A DNA stretch of 64,000 bases from Cellulosimicrobium sp. CUA-896 (GTDB lineage: Bacteria; Actinomycetota; Actinomycetes; Actinomycetales; Cellulomonadaceae). Below, piece by piece: positions 1-12,420 of this stretch. The translations under genes were made by a program, and so were the position numbers. Every line of letters begins with the position of its first letter. The stretch's first letter is position 1. The notes beneath the pieces were generated by a model, which saw nothing but the letters and a program-made list of their open reading frames with translations, was not told the DNA's origin and searched no databases. Where the stretch lies: positions 1 through 64,000 of the forward strand of contig NZ_MKKH01000010.1 in the NCBI RefSeq assembly GCF_001942335.1, in the 5' to 3' direction.

Positions 1-62
1 TCCCCGCGACGGGCGACCCGCACGACGTCACGCTTGAACTCAGGCGGGAACTTCTTGGGCAC
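1..62 (-). CDS. IS3-family transposase OrfA, N-terminal fragment cut by window edge
   Basis: Read on the minus strand from a GTG at 62, the start of the protein is MPKKFPPEFKRDVVRVARRG. This is the typical opening of the helix-turn-helix OrfA subunit of IS3-family transposases, which binds the terminal repeats of the element. Only about 20 codons lie in the window; the rest continues to the left. The two imperfect repeat copies just upstream (102-170) fit the end of the same element. Its presence at the edge of a low-GC block supports a mobile origin for the genes to the right. Confidence 0.7.
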   Translation of the reverse strand, partial: MPKKFPPEFKRDVVRVARRG

Positions 63-101
63 AGCGACATCCTTCCAGCAGGACCTCGTCCCACAGATGA
101 A

Positions 102-170
102 GTGTCAACCAATCCTGCAGCAGTCCCCGGCCTGACTCGAAGAGTCAACCGATCCTGGGGCAGTCCCTAG
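102..170. repeat. Tandem copies of a putative IS terminal repeat
   Basis: Two imperfect direct copies with a 40-bp period share the core GTCAACCRATCCTG followed by CAGTCCC (copies at about 102-130 and 142-170). They lie immediately outside the start of the IS3-type orfA. I infer that they are the terminal repeat and a sub-terminal copy, possibly the transposase-binding sites. The exact element end cannot be fixed without the other terminus. Confidence 0.5.
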
Positions 171-198
171 TCCCATTGTGGTCGAGTCGGCCGAAGGT

Positions 199-522
199 TC
201 ACGGACCTCGTCGACACGGAACGGACCTCATGCGCAGACGGACCAGCGCATCAAACACGGTGTCGGTCTCATCGCTCTCGAGCGGCGGTTCCCAGGACCG
301 ATATCCGGGCACACGGTACGGGACAATCTCAGCCCGGAAGTTTGAGCGCCCGACTTGCGGATGACGTGCGTCGCGAGGCATGTGCATCGCCGTGGCAACC
401 GACGGCCAAGAGCTGGCTGTGCACCCCGACTCACTGGCCGCAGTTGACCGGGGTTGTCGCGCACCAGCGTGCTTCGCAAGAGGCACCATGACTCGGCATA
501 TGTAATGGCAACGAGCAGCCAC
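199..522 (-). other. Region 171-697: no firm gene; one weak minus-strand ORF
   Basis: Between the IS end and the hsdM relic I see no secure gene. A 107-codon minus-strand frame has plausible protein-like composition in its second half (around PGYRSWEPPLESDETDTVF), with mixed third-position bases like the other island genes. It may be a gene remnant. No family was recognised and no clear ribosome binding site was seen. On the plus strand a good Shine-Dalgarno (AGGAGG near 637) precedes an ATG at 651 that encodes only 14 codons. That frame ends just where the ATG at 698 begins, so it looks like a short coupled leader. Confidence 0.25.
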
Positions 523-697
523 GGCGCCCCCGGGCCCGCGCGTTCGTCCCCGATCCGGCGGCCGCCCTCGATAGAGTCGTCCTTGCGGGGAAGCAGGTAT
601 TGTGTCATCTTTCTCGGCTTTTCGTTGTCAGATCCCAGGAGGACACAGGCATGACCGCGCAAACGCCAGCGCTCGCGACGGCTGGAGTGTGGCTCTG

Positions 698-1084
698 ATG
701 GCTCGCGCAGCCAAGATGGCGGCGCAGGCCAAGACGCTAGAGCAGCGCCTCTGGGAGGCCGCCGACGCGCTTCGGGCGAACCAGGGACCGAGCGCGTACA
801 AGCACGTCGTCCTCGGTCTGGTCTTCCTCAAGAGCGACGCTGCGGTCCTGCAGATGGGCGACGACACCCCGAAGAAGATGGCTGCGGAGCTGGTGACCTC
901 GATCCGCCAGAGCGACACGCTGGGCTGGAACCTCAAGGACTCGGTCCGCGCCGCGATGCGCACTAAGGTCCGCAGGCTGCTCGCCAAGTACGACTACCCG
1001 CCTGACCTGGAGGAGAAGGCGATCGAGCTAGTCCTTGAGCAGGCGGAGCTCTACGCCTCCGTCGATGGGGGTGCGCCCGCATGA
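698..1084 (+). pseudogene. Type I restriction-modification relic: HsdM N-terminus fused in frame to HsdR C-terminus
   Basis: The 128-residue product has two unrelated halves. Residues about 12-46 (LEQRLWEAADALRAN, YKHVVLGLVFLK) match the start of HsdM, the type I methyltransferase subunit. From about residue 47 (AAVLQMGDDTPKK, then VRRLLAKYDYPPDLEEKAIE and LVLEQAELY) it matches the last ~80 residues of HsdR, the motor/nuclease subunit (DUF3387 region). The catalytic parts of hsdM, all of hsdS and most of hsdR are missing, as expected from one in-frame deletion with its junction near 836. The stop overlaps the next ATG (ATGA at 1081), so it may still serve to couple translation into the SIR2 gene. 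A maintained function for the fusion cannot be excluded. Confidence 0.75.
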
Positions 1085-2301
1085 CGCTTGTCGTCAAGGA
1101 GTTGACGGCAGAGCGTCTGCGCGATCTGGTGCAGGACGCCCATTTGTCATTCCTGTTTGGGGCCGGCGCTTCGGCTCCCATGTTTCGCCTGCTCGGTGAC
1201 ATCGAGAACTTGCTAACGAGCCTTGACTCCTCCGATGCCGCGCACGACGCGAAGGCCTACGCGCGAGCATCTATCTACTCGGGCTTCTTCCGCTGCGTGG
1301 TGCTCAGAAACAACGACCTGCTCAACCAGAGCGGAACTGAGGCGCCCCACCTCCTGGAGCGGTACGAGGCGTTCCTCCAGACGATCAATCGCCTGCTTCT
1401 CGAGCGCCGCAGTTCGCTGCTCAACAAGCAGGTCAACCTCTTCACCACGAACGTCGACTTGGCCACGGAGATCGCTGCCGAGAGCCTCCAGGTCCACCTC
1501 AACGATGGCTTCGCAGGACGGCTGCAGCCGCGCTTCAGCACCTCGAACTTCGGATCGGTCGTCTCGCGGCGCAGCCTCCAGTACGACAATCTGTCGGAGG
1601 TACCGACCTTCAACCTGCTCAAGCTCCATGGCTCGGTCGGCTGGTCAGCCATAGGGGAGGAGGCGAGCCGCCCCGAAATTGGTCTCGACATCCGCCTGCG
1701 ACAGGTAGCCGAAGTCGCGGAGGAGCTTGACAAGGTCGACGCGATCTTGGCCGAGGTCGACGCAGATACGACCCTGGAGTCCTTGCTCGCTGGCCCAGTC
1801 CCACCGGACGCGGCGGACCTGCTGTCGCGCTTCCTGGACGCCTACAGCCAGCTGGCCATCGTCAATCCGACGAAGGCGAAGTTTCAGCAGACGGTGCTGA
1901 ACCAGAACTACTACGACCTACTTCGGATCTTTTCGAATGAGCTAGAGAAGGAGAATGCCGCCCTCTTCGTCATCGGCTTCTCCTGCCGCGACGAGCACAT
2001 CCGGGAGCTCATGGTGCGCGCCGCTCGCACCAACCCAACGCTCCAGATCGTCATCTTCGCCTACAGCCCGCACGCCGCCACGGAGATCGAGCAAGCCTTC
2101 GACGGCTACCCGATCACCAACAGCAACATCTGGCTGATCGCGCCGCCCGCGGACGCGGAGGGCGAAGAGCGGCTGCGCTACGACCTCCCGACCGTCACAT
2201 CCGAGTTCTTCGCGAAGGTCGCGCCCTCGTCGTCCGCTCCCAAGCAGTCGGTCGAAGTGAAGGTCTCGGTGCAAGAGCCGCTGGTCGACCTCGATGATTG
2301 A
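1081..2301 (+). CDS. SIR2-like protein of a SIR2-HerA anti-phage system
   Basis: The 406-residue protein has a SIR2-like NAD-binding fold: a glycine-rich LFGAGAS loop near residue 27, a TTNVD motif near 122, a catalytic-type histidine in LKLHGSVGW near 181, and a late VIGFSCRDEHI segment. In defence systems such domains hydrolyse NAD+ when infection is sensed. The start overlaps the stop of the hsd relic, and its own stop overlaps the HerA start by 8 nt, so the three are one translationally coupled unit. The pairing with a HerA ATPase is the known SIR2-HerA (Nezha) arrangement, where both proteins assemble into one complex. The gene is intact. NADase function is inferred from family and context. 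Confidence 0.85.
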   Translation: MTLVVKELTAERLRDLVQDAHLSFLFGAGASAPMFRLLGDIENLLTSLDSSDAAHDAKAYARASIYSGFFRCVVLRNNDLLNQSGTEAPHLLERYEAFLQTINRLLLERRSSLLNKQVNLFTTNVDLATEIAAESLQVHLNDGFAGRLQPRFSTSNFGSVVSRRSLQYDNLSEVPTFNLLKLHGSVGWSAIGEEASRPEIGLDIRLRQVAEVAEELDKVDAILAEVDADTTLESLLAGPVPPDAADLLSRFLDAYSQLAIVNPTKAKFQQTVLNQNYYDLLRIFSNELEKENAALFVIGFSCRDEHIRELMVRAARTNPTLQIVIFAYSPHAATEIEQAFDGYPITNSNIWLIAPPADAEGEERLRYDLPTVTSEFFAKVAPSSSAPKQSVEVKVSVQEPLVDLDD

Positions 2302-4315
2302 CCACGAACTGCTTACCCGCGATGCCGTCTTTCGCGTTGGTGAGGTCGTCGGGATCCAGGGCCGGACGGTTCGCATTCGCGTTGACAAGGCTAAGAACGG
2401 TGCGCACCTGATCTACCAAGGTCGGCTGCTGCGCAACGTTGGTGTCGGCGGCTTCCTCAAGATCAGCAAGGGCTTCGCCGAACTGGTCGGCAAGGTCGAT
2501 GGCGAAGAGGTTGCTGAGGCGCGCGGCGACGACAGCTACCGCAGCTCCCGCGACCGGGTCGAACGGATCCTGACTGTCAGTCTCATCGGCTTCATGTCCG
2601 GTGGCCAGTTCCGCCGCGGTGTACGCGAGCTGCCGCTCGTAGGCAACGAATGCTTCCTGCTCGACGAGGACGAGTTCGATCGCATCCACAGTTTCGTCGA
2701 CCCGAAGGACCGCGCGCTCACAATCGGCCGCCTGGCGATGGAGAAAGGACAGGACGTCCGGGTTGGCGTTAACAGCCTCTTCGCCAGCCATATCGGCATC
2801 TTCGGCAACACCGGCAGTGGTAAGTCGTACACCTTGACCAAGCTGTACCACGAGCTCTTCGCCGCCTACGGCGACTCCAAAGCGTTCAAGAAGAGGGCGC
2901 GAGTGCTCGTCATCGACTTCAACGGCGAGTACGTCAACCGGGCTGGTACCGCGGCCGGCGAGCGCAGCAGTTCCGTACTCACCGACAACGACCTGAAGAC
3001 CGAATTCGTGCTCTCTACACGAAACGACGACGGTGACCGCCTCCCGCTGAGCAAGGAAGCGATGGAGGATCCGGTCATCTGGACGGTGCTCCTTGACGCA
3101 ACGGAGAAGACCCAGGCGCCGTTCGTGCAGCGCACGCTCCAGCGCGACTACTGGGAGTCTCGGTTGGACACGGGAGAGGATCTCGCGGCTGCAGTCGCTG
3201 GCATTGTCTACGCCGCCATCCGCAGTTCCGACCCAGCGCTCGACAAAGGCCTCGTCGTCAAGTTCCTCGAGGAAGTCGAAGGCTGCATGGGCGGGGAGGC
3301 GCCTGATGCCCTAGGCGGCTACATCCGCGATATCCAGTCGAACCTTGGCTACCACGGCCAGAACAAGTGCTTCTACTACCGGCAAAGCAACGGCATCAAC
3401 GTCTACGCCAATGACCCGTCGTACGACTACTACTTCCAAGAGCTGACCTACACCCGCATCGGTGGGCTTGGCATCGATCCGAGCGCCCTGCAGAGCGTCG
3501 ACCGCATTCGGTTCAAGCTCGTGCTGCAGTACTACTCTGACATCTTCCACGGCTACGCGAACCGCGAACACCTCGGCCCGCTAATCAAGCGGCTGGAGTC
3601 GCGCATACCGCGCGTGAAGCGCCTGATCGAAGTCTCGGACGGCACGCTGCTGGACAAGCCATTGACTGTGATCTCACTGCGCGACGTCAACGTCGAGATG
3701 CGGAAGGTCATCCCGCTCCTCATCTGCCGCCAGCTCTACGACGAGAAGAAGCGCGACGGCGATCCATCGCGGTACCTCAACATTGTCGTCGATGAGGCGC
3801 ACAACATCCTGTCGAACGTGTCGTCCCGCGAGAGCGAGGCGTGGAAGGACTACCGGCTGGAGACCTTCGAGGAAATCATCAAGGAGGGTCGGAAGTTCGG
3901 CGTCTTTCTGACGATCGCGAGCCAGCGACCGCACGACATCTCCGAGACGATCATTTCCCAGCTGCACAACTACTTCCTGCACCGCCTGGTCAACAACCTC
4001 GACATCATGGCAATCGAGCGAGCTGTCGCGTACCTGGATCGTGTTTCATTTGAGTCCCTGCCGATCCTTCCGACAGGCTCGTGCGTCCTCTCCGGGCTAT
4101 CCACGCAGGTGCCGGTCGTCGTCGACATCGAGAAGTTGCCGGCTGCTTACGAGCCGAACAACAAGACGATGACCTTGGCCGATGGCTGGATCCCCGGCAC
4201 CGACCCCGATGGCGGTGGCTCGGGCGCGGCGACGACCGACCCGACCGACCCTTCCGACCCCTGGGACGACTTCGCCGGCAGCGGTGAGTGGGCTGCCGAG
4301 GAGTCTCCGTTCTGA
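2294..4315 (+). CDS. herA: HerA-like hexameric ATPase (DUF87) of a SIR2-HerA system
   Basis: The 673-residue protein has an N-terminal beta-barrel (HAS-barrel-like) region, then a FtsK/HerA ATPase core. The Walker A GNTGSGKS is near residue 172, Walker B LNIVVDEAH near 497, and the sensor-like TIASQRPHD near 540 is followed by a C-terminal segment with acidic and Pro/Asp-rich ends. HerA ATPases form hexameric rings that move DNA. In defence modules they partner with SIR2 or nuclease subunits. The ATG lies inside the end of the SIR2 gene (8-nt overlap). No frameshift is visible, and base composition is less GC-rich than the genes beyond 12 kb. The family is clear; defence activity is inferred from the partner. 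Confidence 0.9.
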   Translation: MIDHELLTRDAVFRVGEVVGIQGRTVRIRVDKAKNGAHLIYQGRLLRNVGVGGFLKISKGFAELVGKVDGEEVAEARGDDSYRSSRDRVERILTVSLIGFMSGGQFRRGVRELPLVGNECFLLDEDEFDRIHSFVDPKDRALTIGRLAMEKGQDVRVGVNSLFASHIGIFGNTGSGKSYTLTKLYHELFAAYGDSKAFKKRARVLVIDFNGEYVNRAGTAAGERSSSVLTDNDLKTEFVLSTRNDDGDRLPLSKEAMEDPVIWTVLLDATEKTQAPFVQRTLQRDYWESRLDTGEDLAAAVAGIVYAAIRSSDPALDKGLVVKFLEEVEGCMGGEAPDALGGYIRDIQSNLGYHGQNKCFYYRQSNGINVYANDPSYDYYFQELTYTRIGGLGIDPSALQSVDRIRFKLVLQYYSDIFHGYANREHLGPLIKRLESRIPRVKRLIEVSDGTLLDKPLTVISLRDVNVEMRKVIPLLICRQLYDEKKRDGDPSRYLNIVVDEAHNILSNVSSRESEAWKDYRLETFEEIIKEGRKFGVFLTIASQRPHDISETIISQLHNYFLHRLVNNLDIMAIERAVAYLDRVSFESLPILPTGSCVLSGLSTQVPVVVDIEKLPAAYEPNNKTMTLADGWIPGTDPDGGGSGAATTDPTDPSDPWDDFAGSGEWAAEESPF

Positions 4316-4530
4316 TGAGCACCGACCGCGTGTCTTTCACCTTGGCCCGCCGATCATTCGACCTGACAGCTGACAACGTACGACGCCGGCTCCAACAGCA
4401 CTATCCTGAGGCTGTCGACCACGCGCACAGCGCGCTATTGCGGGTCAGCCGGTGTTCTGGCGCCGTTGCAGTGGCGAGTCCGGTGTTAAATGTGGCGCTC
4501 TTCTGCCCGGCGACTTCCTTCAGAACGTGA
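4315..4530 (+). CDS. Small ORF coupled to HerA, function unknown
   Basis: The ATG overlaps the HerA stop (TGATG at 4313), giving a 71-residue product that starts MSTDRVSFTLARRSFDLT. The first ~35 residues look like a genuine folded segment. The later part, rich in Ala, Val and Ser with scattered Cys, looks less natural, so the gene may be truncated or frameshifted near 4420. It could be a third component of the defence operon or a relic of one. It converges with the dGTPase gene, and 80 bases separate them. Confidence 0.4.
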   Translation: MSTDRVSFTLARRSFDLTADNVRRRLQQHYPEAVDHAHSALLRVSRCSGAVAVASPVLNVALFCPATSFRT

Positions 4531-4611
4531 CTCGCCGATCAAGCACCCGGACGAACGCTCGCGCAGATGTCGCGCTTTCGACGCTCGTCGGGGTTGGGGA
4601 CTCCGCTACCG

Positions 4612-5976
4612 TCAGTTGCGATGCAGTTGGCCTGCATGTTCACGTCCGCGGAGAACTGCGTGGAGATGGTACGCCTCTGAGTCGCTGAGGCCTGCGATGT
4701 AATCGAGCAGCCCGCGAACGATCTTCTGCCGCAGTGTGTACCCCGATTCTTGCGACAGCCCGACACCGATCGCTCTTCTGAGCCCGTACGGCAGGCGGCG
4801 CAGAGCCTGCTCGCCGGGTGGCTCGGTACCCCCGCTGCCGTATGCCTCTTCGGCGACTGGGCGCAGTGCTTCGAAGATCTCGCGCAGCACTCGGCGCTGC
4901 CCCGCCTGGATGTTCGACAGCGTCGGATCATCAATTATGTGGAACCAGATGAGTTGCTTAAGAATTGAGTTCAATCTCTCTTGGATTGGCTCCCGGACGA
5001 GTGCCTGGGCGTCGACAGACGCCGCGTTGATGAACTGGGTCAAGAGTACGCCGCGTAGCCTGTCCAAAGCTGCAAGATCCTCTGTCCGGCCCGAGAAGCG
5101 TGCCGCCGGAAAAAACTCCAGCATGCTAGTGAGGGCATCCTTGACCTCTCCGGTTAACGGTCCAAGAGCGCGCGGAGATTCGACGTATTCGAGGAGGATG
5201 TCGAGCGTCTCGGTGTTGGACTTGTAGTCATCGACAGGCACAAGGCTGGCCCTGAAAAAATCCTCGACGTCATGGACGGCGTAGGAGATGTCGTCAGCCC
5301 AGTCCATGATTTGAGCATCAAGTGTAGGGTCGGCGTCCGTGGAGCCTAGCGCCCACTCCAAAGCGCCTGCATCGCAATCATAGCCACCCCACTTAGACTG
5401 CTTGCGGCCCGAAGTGCCTCTCGTCCACGGGTACTTAGTCGTCGCTGCTAGAGACCGTCTCGTTAAATCGAGGCCGATAGGGCGTCCTGGTGACTCGCGG
5501 TGGACCGCTAGAGCGGTCAGGATGCGGAACGACTGCGCATTCCCTTCGAAGCCGTCCTCTAGTAGGCAATTCGGGCACGGGTCAGCGGCGCGACGCTCAA
5601 AGGTGCGTGGGCCTTCCCGGTGCTCGGGGCAGACAACTAGTCGGTCGAGCTCCTGCTCGCCTGCGTGGCCGAATGGGGGGTGTCCCAAATCGTGGGCAAG
5701 GCAGGCGGCTCTAATCGCATCAGGGTCCGCATCGACATCGGAGGGCTGAGCGGTCAGTTTGCTATAAAGGGAAAACCCGACCTGCTCTACCTTTAGTGAG
5801 TGCGTCATCCGGTTGTGCAGCGCCATGCTGGGATCGCCTATCGCGACCTGTGTCACGCCGCCGAGTCGCCGAAAAGAGTCGGAGTACAAAATTCGGTCGC
5901 GGTCCCGAAGGGTCTCGCTCCTGAAAGACGGGTCGCGAGTGCTTCTGCCGGAGCGGCGCTCGACTGCACCCTCCAT
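4612..5976 (-). CDS. dgt: dGTP triphosphohydrolase-like HD-domain protein (dGTPase)
   Basis: The 454-residue protein has the dGTPase signature: RDRILYSDSFRRLGG at the start, HNRMTHSLKVEQVG with the first metal-binding His, then the HD pair in CLAHDLGHPPFGHAGE, and a later ADDISYAVHDVEDFF segment. dGTPases cleave dGTP to deoxyguanosine and triphosphate. In several bacteria, dNTP-depleting HD proteins block phage replication. The start ATG overlaps the stop of an upstream 72-residue gene (TAATG), so the two form an operon. The position beside SIR2-HerA suggests a defensive role, but a housekeeping dGTPase is possible. Length is close to family norm. Confidence 0.85.
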   Translation of the reverse strand: MEGAVERRSGRSTRDPSFRSETLRDRDRILYSDSFRRLGGVTQVAIGDPSMALHNRMTHSLKVEQVGFSLYSKLTAQPSDVDADPDAIRAACLAHDLGHPPFGHAGEQELDRLVVCPEHREGPRTFERRAADPCPNCLLEDGFEGNAQSFRILTALAVHRESPGRPIGLDLTRRSLAATTKYPWTRGTSGRKQSKWGGYDCDAGALEWALGSTDADPTLDAQIMDWADDISYAVHDVEDFFRASLVPVDDYKSNTETLDILLEYVESPRALGPLTGEVKDALTSMLEFFPAARFSGRTEDLAALDRLRGVLLTQFINAASVDAQALVREPIQERLNSILKQLIWFHIIDDPTLSNIQAGQRRVLREIFEALRPVAEEAYGSGGTEPPGEQALRRLPYGLRRAIGVGLSQESGYTLRQKIVRGLLDYIAGLSDSEAYHLHAVLRGREHAGQLHRN

Positions 5977-6194
5977 TACGGTTCGACGATCGTGTACTTG
6001 CTTGTCAACTTGAGAGTGCCATCCTTCACCAAGCCCTCGAGAGCCCGGACCGCGGCCTCGCCGGTATAGCCCATCGCTTCCATGTGCCTAACGTAGGTCA
6101 GCACCGTGACCGCACGGCGACCGCCGCTCTCATCGCGCGAGAGTTCTCGCACAACGTCCCGCGGGTCTATCCCCATCAACGTTTGTGCGCTCAC
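5976..6194 (-). CDS. Small protein upstream of dGTPase, probable helical/wHTH partner
   Basis: A 72-residue protein begins MSAQTLMGIDPRDVVREL and ends VKDGTLKLTSKYTIVEP. The pattern of helices followed by a basic beta-hairpin-like end (AAVRALEGLVKDGTL) resembles a small winged-helix protein. Its stop shares a base with the dGTPase start, so they are co-translated. It may regulate the dGTPase gene or bind the enzyme. No family was recognised with certainty. Confidence 0.6.
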   Translation of the reverse strand: MSAQTLMGIDPRDVVRELSRDESGGRRAVTVLTYVRHMEAMGYTGEAAVRALEGLVKDGTLKLTSKYTIVEP

Positions 6195-6876
6195 TCTGGC
6201 TCCCCTGTCGCTGTACTGTTTCGATCAAGGCGTGTGGACCATCGGGGCGGCACCTTCGCCGACTCCATCCCAGCATCGCACGTGGGTCTGTCTCGCACGC
6301 TAGCACGGTGGATGGTATCTACACGCGCCGACTCCCCGTAAGCTGATCATGTCGGCAGCCTGCGCGGCGGCTGGGATGTTGGACATGTCTGAAGTTGCTC
6401 CACAGGCGGCGGAGGGGGCATGACCTTCGCCCGTCTGTGCCCGTCCGGCTTCGAGCGCGGTTCGGGGCTCCGCGGGCCGCCTCGGCTGGTGGAACGGGCG
6501 GTCGTCCGAGTGCGGTGCCTCGTGGCCCAGCGCGCGGCATCGTCGATGTCGTCGCGTACCGCGAGCGCCGGCGATCCGGTCCCGGCGGTAGGCTTGGTGA
6601 TATTCGTGCGCTCGAACAGGGCCGCAACCAGCAGATCCCGCCCCTGCCATAGGTACGGGGACGCGCGCGGCGGTGTGTCGCCGCCGGCGCGACAGAGGCC
6701 CGACGACTGGGCCTGGGACGCTGTGCGGTGATCGGCGCCTCGTGCGCGCGCCTGGCTCATCCCGTTGACGCGACCCGTCGACGCTGACGCCCGTTATGCC
6801 CTGGACGACACGTCCTTTGGCGTTTGGCGGCGCACCGCGCCGTCGTTGCGACGTGTACGTCGCAGAAGGAGGAGAT
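6195..6876. other. Intergenic stretch without a convincing gene
   Basis: This lies between the divergent small-protein/dGTPase operon and the SNF2 gene. Open frames exist on both strands (for example minus 6760-6347), but they lack ribosome binding sites and recognisable domains and are Arg/Pro/Ser-rich in the manner of shadow frames. The promoters of both flanking units must lie here. I could not assign them with confidence. Confidence 0.3.
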
Positions 6877-9138
6877 GTGGCTCGAGCAGGCCGACGCCGG
6901 TCCGGCCGCGCGCGCACGGACGCAGACGCGCAGCCGAAGTCCGGCGGGCAGCGCCAGTCGGGCGGGCAGCGCCAGGGGAGCGGGAAGCGCCAGTCCGGTG
7001 CGCAGCGCCCTGCAGGGGTGCAGCGTCGTCGCGCCCCCCGCCGCGACGAGGAGGGGCTCATCCCCGTGCTCGCCGACATCACGCGCGAGGTGGAGAACGC
7101 GGTGCGGCGCCCGCCGGTCCGCCCGGCCGTGCGCACGCAGTTCCAGGTCGCCGCGCTGCTCGTTCGCGAGGAGCGCGCCCGGGTGAAGGCCGACACCGCG
7201 CTGACCCCCGCCAAGCGGGACCAGGAGCTCAAGCGGCTCGACGGTGTCGCGACGCTCCTCGCCAAGATCGCCGCCCGCGACACGTCGTTGCTGGCCCTGC
7301 TCGCCGAGGACGCCCGGGTCTCCGACGCGGCGCGCGAGTACAAGGCCTCCGTGATGCGCGCCGGCGGCATCGAGCCGCCGGAGGAGCCCGAGCGTCCGGC
7401 ACCCGCCGCACCGACGCAGGCGACCGACAGGCGCACGGAGAAGCGCGCCGAGAAGCGCGTGGTCCCGCAGTCGGTCATCTCGCGCCAGATGGCGAACCCG
7501 TTCCTCGCCCCGAACTTCGAGGCCGCCGCCGAGCGCGCCGCCGCGAAGCCGCGTCGGCTCGCCGGCTGGGAGCTGCTCGACCCGCTGTTCCGGTCCTTCG
7601 AGCGCGACGCGCCGGGTGCCCCCGCGTGCATGGACCTCCCCGAGCCGCGGCACGTCCCCGTCCCGCAGGGGCGCGACCTCATGCCGCACCAGGCACGTGT
7701 CGTCGCGGCGACCACGCGCGGCCACCGCACCTTCCTCCTCGCCGACGAGCCCGGTCTCGGCAAGACCGCCCAGGCCCTGCTCGCGGCGCAGGCGGCCGAC
7801 GCGTTCCCGCTGCTCGTCGTCGTCCCCAACGTGGTGAAGACGAACTGGGCGCACGAGGTCGGGCTGTGGACGCCGCTGCGTCGCGCCACGGTCGTCCACG
7901 GCGACGGCGACAAGGTCGACGCGTTCGCGGACGTCGTCATCGTCAACTACGAGATCCTCGACCGGCACGCCGGCTGGCTCGGCCAGCACGGCTTCCGCGG
8001 GATGATCGTCGACGAGGCGCACTTCATCAAGAACAAGAGCTCGCAGCGCTCGCAGAACGTGCTGGAGATCTCCGAGCGCATCCGCACCCGCACCGCCCGG
8101 CCGCTGCTCATGGCTCTCACCGGCACCCCGCTCATCAACGACATCGAGGACTTCCGCGCCATCTGGCAGTTCCTCGGCTGGATCGACGACGAGAAGCCGC
8201 TCGGCAAGCTCATGACCTCGCTCGAGGACACCGGCCTCACCCCGGCCGACCCCGGCTTCTACTCGGCGGCGCGGGCCAGCGTCGTCGACATGGGCATCGT
8301 GCGCCGCCGCAAGGTCGACGTCGTCGCCGACATCCCGGCCCGCCGCGTCGCGGACCTGCCGGTCGAGCTCGACGACGCCGCCGGCCGGTCGATCCGTGCG
8401 TCCGAGGAGGCGCTCACGAACCGGCTGGTCCAGCGCTACCGGGCCGCCGTGGAGGCGCGCATGGAGGGCGAGGTCGTGGACGGCGTCGACCACGCGCTCG
8501 CGCGCCGTGTCGCGGCCGCCGAGCTCAAGGACTCGAGCTCCAAGGCCAAGGGCGAGAACGTCTTCACGATGGTGCGCCGCATCGGCCAGGCCAAGGCCGG
8601 GCTCGCCGCCGACTACGCGGCCCAGCTCGCGCGCAACGTCGGCAAGGTCGTGTTCTTCGCCAAGCACGTCGACGTCATGGACCAGGCCGAGCAGACGTTC
8701 GCCGACCGCGGCATCCGGTACGCCTCGATCCGTGGCGACCAGACGCCCAAGGTGCGCGAGCAGAACATCGCCGCGTTCACCAACGACCCCGACGTCGAGA
8801 TCGTCGTGTGCTCCCTGACCGCCGCGGGCGTCGGGCTCAACCTCCAGGTCGCGTCCAACCTCGTGCTGGCCGAGCTGTCCTGGACCGACGCCGAGCAGAC
8901 CCAGGCGATCGACCGCATCCACCGCATCGGCCAGTCGGAGCCCGTCACGGCGTGGCGCATCATCGCCGCGCAGACCATCGACGCCACGATCGCCGCGCTC
9001 ATCGACAGCAAGTCCGGGCTCGCGGCGCGGGCGCTCGACGGCGCGTCGGAGGAGGACGTCCCGTCGTCGACGGACGTGCAGCTCGAGGCCCTCGTCACGC
9101 TGCTCACCGACGCGCTCGCCGGCGAGGGGGCCGCCTGA
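6877..9138 (+). CDS. SNF2-family DEAD/DEAH helicase-like ATPase
   Basis: I chose the GTG at 6877 because AAGGAGG ends about 4-5 nt before it; the frame stays open further upstream. The product is about 753 residues: a basic, low-complexity N-terminus, then an SF2 core with Walker A DEPGLGKTAQALL, motif II IVDEAHFIKNKSS, motif III LTGTPLIND, and a helicase C-terminal domain (KVVFFAKHVDVM, RIHRIGQSEPV). The order and motifs match SWI2/SNF2 proteins of the SMARCAL1/annealing-helicase type, which act on DNA forks or remodel protein-DNA complexes. The gene is intact and more GC-rich than its neighbours on both sides, so it may be native or from another donor. No partner nuclease is adjacent. Confidence 0.88.
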   Translation: MARAGRRRSGRARTDADAQPKSGGQRQSGGQRQGSGKRQSGAQRPAGVQRRRAPRRDEEGLIPVLADITREVENAVRRPPVRPAVRTQFQVAALLVREERARVKADTALTPAKRDQELKRLDGVATLLAKIAARDTSLLALLAEDARVSDAAREYKASVMRAGGIEPPEEPERPAPAAPTQATDRRTEKRAEKRVVPQSVISRQMANPFLAPNFEAAAERAAAKPRRLAGWELLDPLFRSFERDAPGAPACMDLPEPRHVPVPQGRDLMPHQARVVAATTRGHRTFLLADEPGLGKTAQALLAAQAADAFPLLVVVPNVVKTNWAHEVGLWTPLRRATVVHGDGDKVDAFADVVIVNYEILDRHAGWLGQHGFRGMIVDEAHFIKNKSSQRSQNVLEISERIRTRTARPLLMALTGTPLINDIEDFRAIWQFLGWIDDEKPLGKLMTSLEDTGLTPADPGFYSAARASVVDMGIVRRRKVDVVADIPARRVADLPVELDDAAGRSIRASEEALTNRLVQRYRAAVEARMEGEVVDGVDHALARRVAAAELKDSSSKAKGENVFTMVRRIGQAKAGLAADYAAQLARNVGKVVFFAKHVDVMDQAEQTFADRGIRYASIRGDQTPKVREQNIAAFTNDPDVEIVVCSLTAAGVGLNLQVASNLVLAELSWTDAEQTQAIDRIHRIGQSEPVTAWRIIAAQTIDATIAALIDSKSGLAARALDGASEEDVPSSTDVQLEALVTLLTDALAGEGAA

Positions 9139-9234
9139 GCCGTTCCCTTGCATGAAAGACGTCGTCGCGAGAGCGCCGGGCGACTCGCCTGTCGGTGATC
9201 GCTAGTCGCGAAAGTGGCGCCCCACAATCCACCC

Positions 9235-9262
9235 TTGACATTATGGCGATCCGTGCCACCAT
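9235..9262 (+). promoter_or_regulatory. Putative promoter for a leaderless transcript
   Basis: TTGACA at 9235-9240 is followed, after 16 bases, by CACCAT (a CANNNT-type -10). A start of transcription about 7 bases downstream would fall on the ATG at 9269. No Shine-Dalgarno sequence precedes that ATG, which agrees with a leaderless mRNA, common in actinobacteria. The -10 match is weak. Confidence 0.4.
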
Positions 9263-9268
9263 TCCGCT

Positions 9269-9883
9269 ATGGATGGCATTTGGGCTCTGACGCTCGCGCT
9301 AGGGATACCAATCGGAATTGCCGCAAGCGCGCTATACGAGTTTGCGCGCGCCTGCTGGGGGCGGGTTCGCCATGGCAAGCTAATGCTTGCAGGCGCGTGG
9401 GCAGAATGGGTCCCGGGGTGCGCGGGTCGACAATTCAGCGTTGGGCTCATTCGCTACGATATTATTCGTCGGCGCTACGTTTTCGACGGAACCAATTACA
9501 ACAACGATGGTTCGCCGTTCTGCCACTGGCGAACGGTTTCAAGTTACATCGATCTCGTCAGCCTTGAATACCACTATGTTTTTGCCACTAGGGATGTCAC
9601 TTCGATGCAGACGACGTCATATGGCTACGGCGTGGTGTCGCTTGTCCGAAGCGGTGGCCGTATTGTTCCCGCGGGTGGCCAGTACATGTACTCGGTCGGC
9701 CGGAACGTCGCCGTGCAGATGGATCACTCAATGAAGAGGGTTGACGCGGCTAGCGCCCCCAATGCCGACCGAAATGCCTCCGCGTTCCTCGCGCGAACTT
9801 TCCCCAAAGAATGGCCATGTCGCTCCGGCGTCGTGACGCGCGCGAAAACTGGTGGCGAGGAGCGTCTCCACGGAAGTGGGTAA
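9269..9883 (+). CDS. Membrane-anchored beta-rich protein, possibly Cap15/S-2TM-beta-like
   Basis: The 204-residue protein begins with a hydrophobic helix (ALTLALGIPIGIAASALYEF), followed by a predicted beta-rich domain with alternating aromatic and polar residues: GAWAEWVPG, IIRRRYVFDGTNYNNDG, FCHWRTVSSYID, YHYVFATRDVTS. This anchor plus lipocalin-like barrel layout resembles the CBASS effector Cap15 (SMODS-associated TM-beta domain), which senses cyclic nucleotides and disrupts membranes. No cyclase (CD-NTase) gene is nearby, so it would be an orphan or a different sensor. Base composition is much less GC-rich than core genes, and A/T-ending codons are frequent, indicating transfer. The family call is inference from pattern only. 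Confidence 0.45.
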   Translation: MDGIWALTLALGIPIGIAASALYEFARACWGRVRHGKLMLAGAWAEWVPGCAGRQFSVGLIRYDIIRRRYVFDGTNYNNDGSPFCHWRTVSSYIDLVSLEYHYVFATRDVTSMQTTSYGYGVVSLVRSGGRIVPAGGQYMYSVGRNVAVQMDHSMKRVDAASAPNADRNASAFLARTFPKEWPCRSGVVTRAKTGGEERLHGSG

Positions 9884-10080
9884 ACGCGGGCAAAACAACA
9901 CATGGCCTCGGCTTCACATTTGGCAAGAAAGTCGTGCGCGCGGCTCGAATCGGCCGGCGTTGTTGACGCCGATGGCGATGCGCTCCGCAGGTTTCGACCT
10001 GCGCTTGCGGTCGGTGCTCGATTGTGTCATCGCCGATCGACTTTTACCGTGCGTCTATACAAACCAGCGGCCAAGGCGGA

Positions 10081-10293
10081 TCACGGATCGATCGCGAAGA
10101 ACCGCGGCCCTGAGTAGTCGTCGCATACGATGTGCTCGGTAAACATTGCGGCGGGTCTTACCCAGTAGCTTCGGTCGCCATAAAGCTTCCGATAGAACAC
10201 AAATTCCTCCTGCGTTTCGCTGTGGCGGCCGACTCCGATGACTTCGTAACGGCGGCCTTTAAAGTGCGCGTAGACCCCTGGCTTAATGAGCAT
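10081..10293 (-). CDS. DUF1653 domain protein
   Basis: Starting at the ATG at 10293, the product is about 70 residues: LIKPGVYAHFKGRRYEVIGV, HSETQEEFVFYRKLYGD, YWVRPAAMFTEHI, ending PRFFAIDP. This is the compact DUF1653 fold, characterised by the PGxYxHFKG start and the YGDxxxWVRP core. The family has no proven function and is widespread in phages and bacteria. The start lies 11 bases inside the end of the upstream gene, so the two form an operon. The ORF is open to 10311, but the first few residues there do not fit the family. Confidence 0.85.
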   Translation of the reverse strand: MLIKPGVYAHFKGRRYEVIGVGRHSETQEEFVFYRKLYGDRSYWVRPAAMFTEHIVCDDYSGPRFFAIDP

Positions 10294-10705
10294 GAGCGCC
10301 ATACACCTCATTCCAGTTGTGAATTTGAGACATTGCGAAATGGCGTGTAGCGTCTCGCGTGTAATCGTGCGCTTCGAGCAGCCACTGTTCGACGGGGTGC
10401 CACTCGGTTCGGCCGAACCATATCCTTACGGGTTTGATCCTACGCGTTAGGCGCTCGCCGCGATGGTTCGTGTGGTCGATTACGACGTCGTTCGTAGCCA
10501 TGTCGACTATGGTAGTCGACGGAATGGTGCGAAGGCTGTTGCCGGCCGCGTAGCCACCAGGGGCTTCGGTTGGCCCCCTTTTGAATCTGTGACAGTCGCG
10601 CGCGGCTTCGACCAGAGCCGCAATAGTATTTCGCTTGGCGATTGCGCGCAAGAGTGCTCTGTTTCGCGCGTGTTGCAAGCCTTCGCCCCACGTGCCGTTC
10701 GACAA
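10283..10705 (-). CDS. Phage-type WYL-like small protein
   Basis: The C-terminal half (from about residue 69: DHTNHRGERLTRRIKPV, WFGRTEWHPVEQWLLEAHD, HFAMSQIHNWN) matches a small family common in phages and islands, with a TEWHP-x-xQWLLEA signature and a WYL-like beta-barrel. An internal ATG at 10501 could be the true start, giving a 72-residue protein of usual length. The upstream 68 residues are not recognised. It overlaps the DUF1653 gene by 11 bases. The base composition is that of the island. The role is unknown; WYL-like domains often bind nucleic-acid ligands. Confidence 0.65.
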   Translation of the reverse strand: MSNGTWGEGLQHARNRALLRAIAKRNTIAALVEAARDCHRFKRGPTEAPGGYAAGNSLRTIPSTTIVDMATNDVVIDHTNHRGERLTRRIKPVRIWFGRTEWHPVEQWLLEAHDYTRDATRHFAMSQIHNWNEVYGAHAH

Positions 10706-10897
10706 ATGCTCTCAGTTCACCTCCATCGCCGCCCTAGGAATGTCGGTGAGCCGTTCACGTCAGTCGCGACCGACGCTCTGAGGATGGAGATCCGCTATGG
10801 CGGTTGCACAATTAATCATCTCCACAGGCAGAAGGTCTGAGCTGATTGACGTGCGCTGACGTTTACTCCTGCCCGATTCCGCATGTTCGACCGCTGT

Positions 10898-11641
10898 TCA
10901 GGCGCACCGCCGCGCGACGAAGTACGCGCGGAACGGGTCGGGCTCGACCTCCTTCTCCTTGACGTGACCGAACCCCTCCTCGGCGAGCATCACCGCGGCG
11001 CGCTCGACGCCCCACACCGTGCCGAGCCCGTCACCGTCAAGGGCCAGGGAGACGCTCGTGCAGTGGTACGTCGACACCGCGTATAGGTGTGCCCTACGGC
11101 AAGCCCACGTTCTGCTCTAGCTGGCTCGACGCCTTGATGCCGACCATGAGGAACGTCCCGCCCGGTCGCACGGCGGGCCGCACGTTCGCGAGAACCGCGG
11201 CCGGGTGCGCCTGGTCGTAGACGGCATCGAACTCCGTCACGAGGTCGAACCCCGAGTCCAAGGCTGGCTCGGCGACGTCACGTACCTCGACCGACGCGTT
11301 CGTTATCCAGAGCTCCCGTGCTTCCTCGCGGGTCGCGCCGATCGCGACGGGCGAGAAGGCGTACCGGACGAACCGCCTGGCCGGGAAGGCCAGCGCCATG
11401 AGGCTGATCGCGTGCCCGCGCCCTCACCCGAAGTCGGCCACGTCGATCCTGTCGCGCAGCGCGTCGGTCATGCCGGCGAGCGGCAGGGTCGCGTCGACGA
11501 GGGTGGCGTTGTGCACCGCGGCGGTCGTCTCTGCCATATTGCGGTGGAAGCGCGGGAAGTCCGCGTACGACAGGCCGCCGCCGTGCGGAACCTCTCGATC
11601 GTCGCCTGCGCGATCTCACCCATCATCGTCGCTTGCTGCAT
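10898..11641 (-). pseudogene. Decayed SAM-dependent methyltransferase
   Basis: Across three minus-strand frames I can read an N-terminal winged-helix-like part (MQQATMMGEIAQATIERF), motif I of a class I methyltransferase, a mid region (FDLVTEFDAVYDQAHPAAVL, VRPGGTFLMVGIKASSQLE) and the C-terminus (TVWGVERAAVMLAEEGF, DPFRAYFVARR). In motif I, the expected Cys of DFG-C-GRGHA is a TGA stop (minus strand of 11424-11426), and there are frame changes before and after. It resembles actinobacterial methyltransferases of the Rv2258c type. Because a substitution stop is present, this is a genuine pseudogene rather than only an indel error. Confidence 0.7.
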
Positions 11642-11709
11642 GAGGACCGCGACGTTGCTCCGGCCCCCAGCTCGACCCCGCTCCGCGCGATCCGCTCCTC
11701 GGCGGCGGT

Positions 11710-12420
11710 CTAGCCGCCCTCCGCGCACAGGAGTTGGAGGCGGTGGACGCCGCAGATTCTCGAGGGAACGACCTCGCCCTGGAAATGCTCGCACCACTGC
11801 CCGGTCGCTTTGGCCCGCGTCCTCGTGCGGTCCAGGTCGCCGAGCTGGTGACAGGCACGGATGACCGTGGAGTACATCTCGTCGCCCACTCCGGTGGAGC
11901 GGCCCGGCGAGCATGGGCAGCATCGCCTCGGCGAGCTGGCCAAACCCCGCCGCCGTGCGGCCGCGCCGCGGGTCGCTCATCCCCGCTGAGACGAGGTCAG
12001 GGACGTGACCGCGAGGTCGTGGGTGCTGCGGGCGGTCCGCTCGACGTCGTCAGCCGCCCGCCGCAGGCCCTCCAGGTCCCACCGGGCGAGCGCGAGCGCG
12101 GCCCCCGCGTAGAAGAAGTACCCGCGCGGCGCGCTCTCCGGGCGGCGGCGTCACCCTCCTCCTCTAGGACGCGTGACGCGAGCTCGGTGAGTTCGAGGGA
12201 CTCCTGCGCCCTGCTAACCCACCAGCGGCGTCCCCGAGGACCGCCAGGTCCGGTGCTTCGAGCTCGGTTACCTCGCCGGCACACGACAGGGCGCGTAGGC
12301 GTCCTGCTGGTCGTCCCCGGGCAAACGCCGCGCGTCCCGCGGCGAGCGCGTCCGTACCCGATCATGCGGTCAACCCACGCTAGACGTTCCGGTCCGACGT
12401 CGTCCTCGCGCGTGGCCGTG
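11710..12420 (-). pseudogene. Remnant of a TPR/LuxR-type large regulator
   Basis: Minus-strand fragments in changing frames read like the helical repeats of large ATPase/LuxR-type regulators: RLAWVDRMIGYGRAR, QESLELTELASRVLEEEGDA, SDPRRGRTAAGFGQLAEAML and STVIRACHQLGDLDRTRTRA, then an in-frame TAG at 11710-11712. No ATP-binding or DNA-binding domain is left. The block is continuous with the decayed methyltransferase downstream, so both decayed together at the right edge of the island. The family call is tentative. Confidence 0.4.

Follow-up and report, generated by a model that had tools for sequence, protein, structure and literature searches.

Defence genes have been found inside type I restriction operons and next to their remains. 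The classical case is PrrC, which is embedded in the EcoprrI hsd operon (PMC3874165, PMC12707154), and a review notes that accessory genes are coupled to some of the restriction systems (PMC12707154). An hsdR relic was described in 2008: upstream of rloC in Geobacillus kaustophilus lies a remnant C-terminal part of hsdR, from which the authors infer an origin in a full restriction system (Davidov and Kaufmann 2008, PMC2610378). Within a restriction operon itself, hsdM and hsdS of EcoKI overlap by one base, with translational coupling (PMC3510504). Our literature search, which had partial coverage, returned no paper that describes hsdM::hsdR scars before SIR2-HerA genes or treats the hsdR stop as a site of docking, which is weak evidence that the two patterns are new.

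The subject of this study is the open reading frame at positions 698-1084 of a 64,000-nt stretch of contig NZ_MKKH01000010.1 from Cellulosimicrobium sp. CUA-896 (hereafter, the window). The frame joins the start of hsdM to the end of hsdR and runs into a SIR2-HerA gene pair. As argued below, it is very probably a scar left by deletion, in which the operon head and, within the 3′ end of hsdR, the ribosome site of SIR2 are retained, and not an adaptor protein.

Make-up of the frame and its surroundings

The frame consists of 128 codons and a TGA, and the TGA (1082-1084) overlaps the ATG of the SIR2 gene (1081-1083) in the sequence ATGA. An earlier note on this DNA had read it as an in-frame fusion of about 46 HsdM and about 80 HsdR residues that stays open and ends on the SIR2 start. 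The fusion, the open frame and the overlap all hold; the lengths are corrected here to about 45 and about 83 residues. In Pfam, residues 14-54 match HsdM_N (profile positions 1-41 of 135, E 6e-8), and T1RH-like_C, which represents the C-terminus of HsdR, is matched by residues 46-120 (profile positions 253-327 of 329, E 2.9e-23). The two halves fell in hsdM and hsdR, two genes about 5.5 kb apart in complete actinobacterial operons (L003, L005 and L010; in L003 the matches lie at 2465-2596 and 8001-8288). In comparisons within the family, the hsdM-side DNA matches of G027, G511, G479, G485 and G060 stop at window position 832 and the hsdR-side matches of G053 and G511 start at 831, so the junction is sharp. 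Intact hsdM encodes FLKYISD at this point, intact hsdR QNDAAV and the window FLKSDAAV; by our own reading of the junction alignment, the join would have at most two or three shared bases, fitting a deletion without long repeats. The complete set of HsdM, HsdS and HsdR is absent from the locus, where these two remnants are what is left, and the locus does not hold a complete type I restriction-modification system.

One could suppose that the fusion is an artefact of assembly, given a draft genome of 78 contigs at 83.2% completeness and a window that begins at a contig end. However, the open frame is clean, the fusion query matches a single place in the genome, and the same operon with a scar is present in a one-contig genome (G071, described below). 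Because the query has one place to match, misassembly driven by repeats is unlikely, a view that the G071 scar supports, and we regard an artefact as extremely improbable.

The features of the locus are collected in Table 1. The TGA of the leader ORF overlaps the ATG of the fusion (TGATG). No sigma-70 consensus was found between window positions 100 and 4700, which says little for such a genome. The duplex estimates for ribosome sites were made with an anti-Shine-Dalgarno sequence that we assume to apply here.

Table 1. Features of the scar and of the SIR2-HerA genes, in window coordinates
Feature	Position	Strand	Basis
Operon head, region common to G071, presumed promoter	534..697	+	window 534-735 matches G071 at 87.6%
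15-codon leader ORF MTAQTPALATAGVWL, AGGAGG just before it	651..698	+	sequence; G071 counterpart MTTQTTALVTAGVWL; ribosome-site estimate -10.3
hsdM start, HsdM residues ~1-45	698..832	+	Pfam HsdM_N; hsdM-side DNA matches stop at 832
Stretch missing from the G071 copy (further or larger in-frame deletion)	736..1035	+	DNA and reading-frame comparison with G071
hsdR end, last ~83 residues and stop	833..1084	+	Pfam T1RH-like_C; tail alignment
Likely SIR2 ribosome site GGGGG (1067-1071) in the hsdR 3′ end, and ATGA overlap (1081-1084)	1067..1084	+	duplex estimate -12.0
SIR2-family gene, 406 aa	1081..2301	+	PADLOC SIR2, E 2.2e-59; Pfam SIR2_2; dN/dS 0.12 against G071
HerA-type ATPase gene, 673 aa, start overlapping the SIR2 end	2294..4315	+	PADLOC HerA, E 2.2e-167; Pfam DUF87; dN/dS 0.10 against G071

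The two genes behind the scar are likely anti-virus genes and make up a predicted SIR2-HerA defence system. The Pfam match of the SIR2 protein is above cut-off (E 9.7e-8), and the protein contains GAGAS, TTN and KLHG stretches, which we take to be SIR2-family motifs; the DUF87 match of the HerA protein is likewise above cut-off, and a GNTGSGKS stretch is visible. The NCBIfam scores were below their cut-offs for SIR2_antiphage (92 of 500 bits), HerA_antiphage (114.8 of 800 bits) and HerA_antiphage_2 (118.6 of 850 bits). Directly behind the pair, at 4615-5976 on the minus strand, lies a dGTPase-family gene (PADLOC dGTPase, E 4.5e-79), a possible further phage-defence gene, and at 6796-9138 on the plus strand a SNF2-type helicase gene matching DpdE and ZorD models. 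The region around these genes may be a defence island. The contig starts inside an apparent transposase start (VPKKFPPEFKRDVVRVARRG, 1-62, minus strand), presumably of the IS3 type.

A different scar in the same operon

G071, which belongs to the same family as the window genome and to another genus, encodes SIR2 and HerA proteins 93% and 94% identical to those of the window. Its DNA is colinear with the window over 534-735 and over 1036-4421 (90.7%), with the stretch between them skipped. The resulting frame, MARAAKMAAQAKTLDEQAELCASVDGGVSA, has 30 codons, is in frame, overlaps the SIR2 ATG and is preceded by a 15-codon leader of the same kind, and both scars keep the TGATG and ATGA overlaps. 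This scar could be the product of further shrinkage of a window-like scar or of one larger deletion of the restriction genes, either being possible. By either route, the intervening protein is dispensable and both ends were kept. Apart from the SIR2-HerA block, window positions 1-12000 showed no similarity to the 19.9 kb surrounding the block in G071, and a move of the block is suggested by this. A tRNA-Leu (gag) gene lies 650 bp upstream of the block in G071 (L122, 11983-12068), a possible integration site.

Comparison of the window with G071 gave dN 0.039 and dS 0.323 for SIR2 and dN 0.031 and dS 0.321 for HerA, and these values indicate that both genes are under purifying selection. Such conservation in two lineages with scars speaks against an obligate cis link to a restriction enzyme. 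Among the codons of the scar shared with G071, there are three synonymous and three other changes in the leader, four synonymous and no other changes on the hsdM side, and four synonymous and three other changes on the hsdR side; many of these may predate the deletions.

The fusion protein departs from the conservation of HsdM and HsdR. When judged by near-invariant columns, whose definition on the intact sequences gives these sequences an advantage, the fusion differs at 3 of 29 HsdM columns (G27A, E30G and E33A) and at 4 of 37 HsdR columns (L58P, I75L, D76G and N46S, which sits at the junction). Of 48 intact HsdM sequences, 42 differ at none of these columns and 6 at one; for the 46 intact HsdR sequences the numbers are 28 at none, 12 at one, 4 at two and 2 at three. 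Six of the seven changes fall in columns that are invariant in the intact set (48/48 or 46/46). Three of 49 tails and four of 52 heads, with less than 58% identity to the window, were dropped from this test. The intact set left out the window's own loci, L156 and L158 (cargo and lengths as in L027 and L043) and the short loci L082-L085, and two of its members, L154 and L157, could repeat another included locus. The changes are what relaxed constraint would look like.

These results bear on a second suggestion of the earlier note, that the fusion was retained as a small adaptor. One could envision a selected adaptor or regulator that binds SIR2 or HerA and reuses HsdM and HsdR helices; the frame is open, its stop overlaps SIR2, and five helices are predicted. 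The predicted model, built from 18 sequences, is nevertheless of low confidence (pLDDT 65, pTM 0.43), the seven near-invariant positions are changed, and G071 retains only 30 codons while its SIR2-HerA genes are conserved. No end-to-end relative was found in the relatives, order genomes, contigs or phage record described next. We think an adaptor very unlikely, and the suggestion is not borne out.

A conserved family aligning with the whole protein beside SIR2-HerA was, according to the earlier note, the finding that would speak against a relic. Matches to the fusion protein were present in 23 of 149 relative genomes (E 1e-3) and in 58 of 396 genomes of the order (E 1e-6), the window genome being counted in both, and outside the window none was an end-to-end match to the 128 residues in one short frame. 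The window alone covers residues 1-128 in one place, and the reading as a relic stands. A search of genome contigs gave 166 relatives, of which the best 80 were inspected. In 215 plasmid records, the single match covering 80% or more, among 30 listed, is annotated HsdR; of four phage records, the one covering 81% (MT835479.1) is a complete hsdR gene of 1080 residues; and five viral contigs held no end-to-end relative. We rejected a stand-alone family beside SIR2-HerA, because the long matches, in MT835479.1 and in L012, L027, L034, L041 and L044, proved to be complete hsdR frames; in these five loci the match lies at the end of the frame and hsdM is matched separately.

Short frames were followed up in G208, G386, G363 and G322, with G165, G266, G436, G283, G223, G206 and G365 left out or represented by short loci only. 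As fusions these four were rejected: in G208 a complete hsdM is preceded by a loose hsdM head (residues 1-43), in G386 the hsdM of an otherwise complete operon has a broken frame, and G363 and G322 have hsdR-end fragments without an hsdM head. The loose head of G208 lies at 3596-3724 of L190 (minus strand), and no hsdR tail was found with it. The hsdR fragments of L054, L037, L057, L077, L081, L120 and L121 were not counted as hsdM::hsdR scars, nor was that of L056, which overlaps a chorismate-binding/glutamine-amidotransferase gene and not a defence gene. The L037 fragment has an internal stop and is adjoined by AAA-type and other genes (L037 2120-5146).

Intact operons and second genes at the hsdR stop

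In our preferred explanation of the two scars, an ancestral operon had the order hsdM-hsdS-hsdR-SIR2-HerA, with the SIR2 start on the hsdR stop codon, and deletions within it took out the restriction system and brought the hsdM start and the hsdR end together. The earlier note had similarly suggested a pair nested directly behind hsdR that outlived it. The survival is supported: the fusion is a relic of an hsdM-S-R deletion, and the pair has outlived the restriction genes, in agreement with G071, with the L159/L062 comparison and with the second genes of 20 of 46 operons (both below). The nested ancestor, in turn, we infer rather than observe, because the proposed search for hsdMSR with SIR2-HerA directly behind it found none in the sampled genomes of the family, order, class and phylum, the last three being samples. 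SIR2 matches occurred in 9 of 396 order genomes (E 1e-8) and 1 of 217 phylum genomes (E 1e-15), and HerA matches in 2 of 221 family genomes (E 1e-60) and 1 of 394 class genomes (E 1e-40), the window genome being counted each time. Besides the window genome and G071, seven genomes of the order bear SIR2; no hsd genes were found around it in G308, G205, G432 and G420, and G167, G332 and G020 were left out. None of the 8 plasmid SIR2-HerA loci examined, out of 126 records, starts on a restriction gene in its incomplete gene table, and the viral contigs held no intact hsdMSR-SIR2-HerA. As a possible accessory gene pair of the PrrC/RloC kind, SIR2-HerA stands behind an hsdM::hsdR scar, and its intact operon form was not found in the sampled genomes. 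In the plasmid locus L185, hsd genes lie nearby on the opposite strand. G308 offers a parallel with a type III restriction gene: with one choice among several start codons, its SIR2 gene (42% identity) can begin on the stop codon of that gene (TGATG). The upstream gene matches PADLOC REase_III (E 0), and the contig ends before any HerA gene. Both genes lie in L123 at 6800-11092.

An independent deletion was found in L062 (uncultured Arachnia sp.), in which HsdM 1-196 is joined to HsdR 975 onwards. L062 is colinear, at 89.1% and 92.0%, with L159 (genome G091), a complete hsd operon, minus L159 2181-8014 (5,834 bp). The same AlbA_2-type gene follows in both, starting on the hsdR stop; a close relative of this gene in L021 has an SLFN/AlbA_2 domain, and in L062 a PDC-S53 helicase gene comes after it. 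This pair of loci shows, for cargo other than SIR2-HerA, that a docked gene can survive deletion of the restriction core. The L062 join is out of frame; the frame is nonetheless open to 8193, beyond the ATG of the next gene at 8186.

Second genes at the hsdR stop were surveyed in 46 complete hsdR genes, most of them drawn from the 80 best among 166 loci and therefore biased to relatives of the window. In 20 of these 46, hsdR is followed by a second gene, at least 200 codons long, whose start lies no more than 4 nt from the hsdR stop (10 at -3, 6 at 0, and 4 at +3 or +4, with the L017 gene counted at its ATG and not at a longer TTG start). Seven others have an ORF that starts further off (a contig end truncates one of these), and the remaining 19 lack one in the searched range. 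Overlapping gene starts are common within operons generally; the part of the pattern that may be notable is the defence content of the second genes. They represent 15 sequence families, and 16 of the 20 match PADLOC models at E 1e-4 or better. The models are GajA (L024 and L026), Old or AriA-like ATPases (L010, L017, L046 and, partly covered only, L003), Tmn (L027, L034 and L040), the SIR2-type Dsr1 (L038 and L043), CBASS cyclase (L028), SduA (L047), HamA (L018), PDC-S54 (L025) and methyltransferase or mad2 models (L005). The second genes of L013, L044, L021 and L159 had no PADLOC match.

One hypothesis is that, in this actinobacterial restriction family, the hsdR stop serves generally as a docking port, where second defence systems (SIR2-type, Gabija, OLD, Hachiman, Shedu, CBASS, Tmn and others) borrow the promoter and translation of the operon, and that after loss of restriction, selection keeps the hsdM-hsdR frame open as a translational relay, the scars being maintained expression parts and not debris. 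If this is true, the scars would belong to the expression unit of the second system.

The arrangement of expression signals can also be explained by the deletion scar itself. The surviving hsdM end would supply the upstream region, leader and first ribosome site to SIR2-HerA, and the last ~20 nt of hsdR would supply the SIR2 ribosome site and the stop/start overlap. The frame between the ends would be a leader with an unneeded protein, which may aid ribosomes to SIR2 by termination-reinitiation. A ribosome-site-like stretch for the second gene was present within the hsdR end in most of the 18 operons scored (of 20), and loss of the hsdR end should therefore weaken the cargo. Without the hsdM end, the leader and presumably also the promoter would be gone, and the two effects together would explain why just these ends survive. 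Because SIR2's own ribosome site scores as well as that of the leader (Table 1), coupling may be unnecessary.

When breakpoints were placed at random in 49 intact hsdR ends, the path to the next start was open in 4165/4165, 1950/4165 and 645/4165 cases for the three frames, or 0.54 overall. The frame is open to the next gene's start in all three scars, which has a chance probability of about 0.16 and is not significant. Frame conservation as proof of coupling was rejected for this reason and for the out-of-frame join of L062.

The same results raise the possibility of a purely passive relic, a sub-case of the deletion scar whose odds overlap with it, in which the deletion is in frame by chance, SIR2-HerA rely on a ribosome site of their own and the fusion frame does nothing, not even as a leader. 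This agrees with the good ribosome site just ahead of SIR2, with the changes of the fusion at conserved HsdM and HsdR positions, with the frame statistics and the L062 join, and with the 8 examined plasmid SIR2-HerA pairs, which have no such leader in their gene tables. It accounts less readily for two different in-frame scars in one operon that both retain the TGATG and ATGA overlaps, and for the purely synonymous changes in the shared hsdM codons, though these could predate the deletions. We give a relic of this kind somewhat less than an even chance.

Two loci have further arrangements of hsdR ends. L028 (8303-13746) holds a complete hsdMSR, an overlapping CBASS cyclase gene and then an hsdR-tail ORF (11378-11767) that overlaps a GajA gene; its modules are stacked and separated by an hsdR end. 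In L055 (7734-8168), an hsdR tail is in one frame with a putative tRNA-like sequence and GajA comes after it, an arrangement that suggests an island at a tRNA gene. The hsdR tails before GajA in both loci would be expected if cassettes of an hsdR end and a second gene were exchanged at the conserved hsdR 3′ end by homologous recombination, the hsdM start being joined meanwhile. However, a single deletion relative to L159 explains L062, and the window fusion holds the hsdM start at the operon head, as it would after a plain deletion. We think that such recombination is unlikely. Because the frame statistics are not significant, the SIR2 site scores as well as that of the leader and the L062 join is out of frame, our strong preference is for the deletion scar that keeps both ends, and the docking port with a selected relay is offered as a tentative and rather doubtful proposal.

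Relation to known systems

The scars would document how one defence system rode on another and then outlived it. The purifying selection on SIR2-HerA in two scar-only lineages suggests that the pair has no need for adjacent restriction genes, and the second genes at the hsdR stop suggest a simple route for stacking and co-expressing defence systems. The DNA directly behind hsdR and hsdR fragments is a place to look for new ones.

In gene order, a SIR2-family gene followed by a HerA-type ATPase gene, the window is like the SIR2-HerA systems of the PADLOC models. It is unlike the 8 plasmid loci examined, which have no upstream restriction-gene scar or overlap in their incomplete gene tables. PrrC is similar in being a second defence gene inside a type I restriction operon; it is silenced by the restriction complex and released on its inhibition (PMC3874165, PMC12707154), whereas the SIR2-HerA genes of the window are under purifying selection where the restriction genes of the locus are gone. 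EcoKI shares with the window a stop/start overlap at an hsd gene, and coupled translation is stated for EcoKI; its overlap lies between hsdM and hsdS, that of the window between the hsdR end and a second defence system (PMC3510504). The rloC locus, like the window, has a defence gene with an hsdR remnant upstream. As described in the parts of the paper cited here, its relic comprises 568 C-terminal residues, in DNA whose annotation is non-coding, beside the transposon that carries rloC, and its second gene is an anticodon nuclease where the window has SIR2-HerA. Those parts present the relic without an hsdM start, an in-frame join or a stop/start overlap, and the window has all three (PMC2610378).
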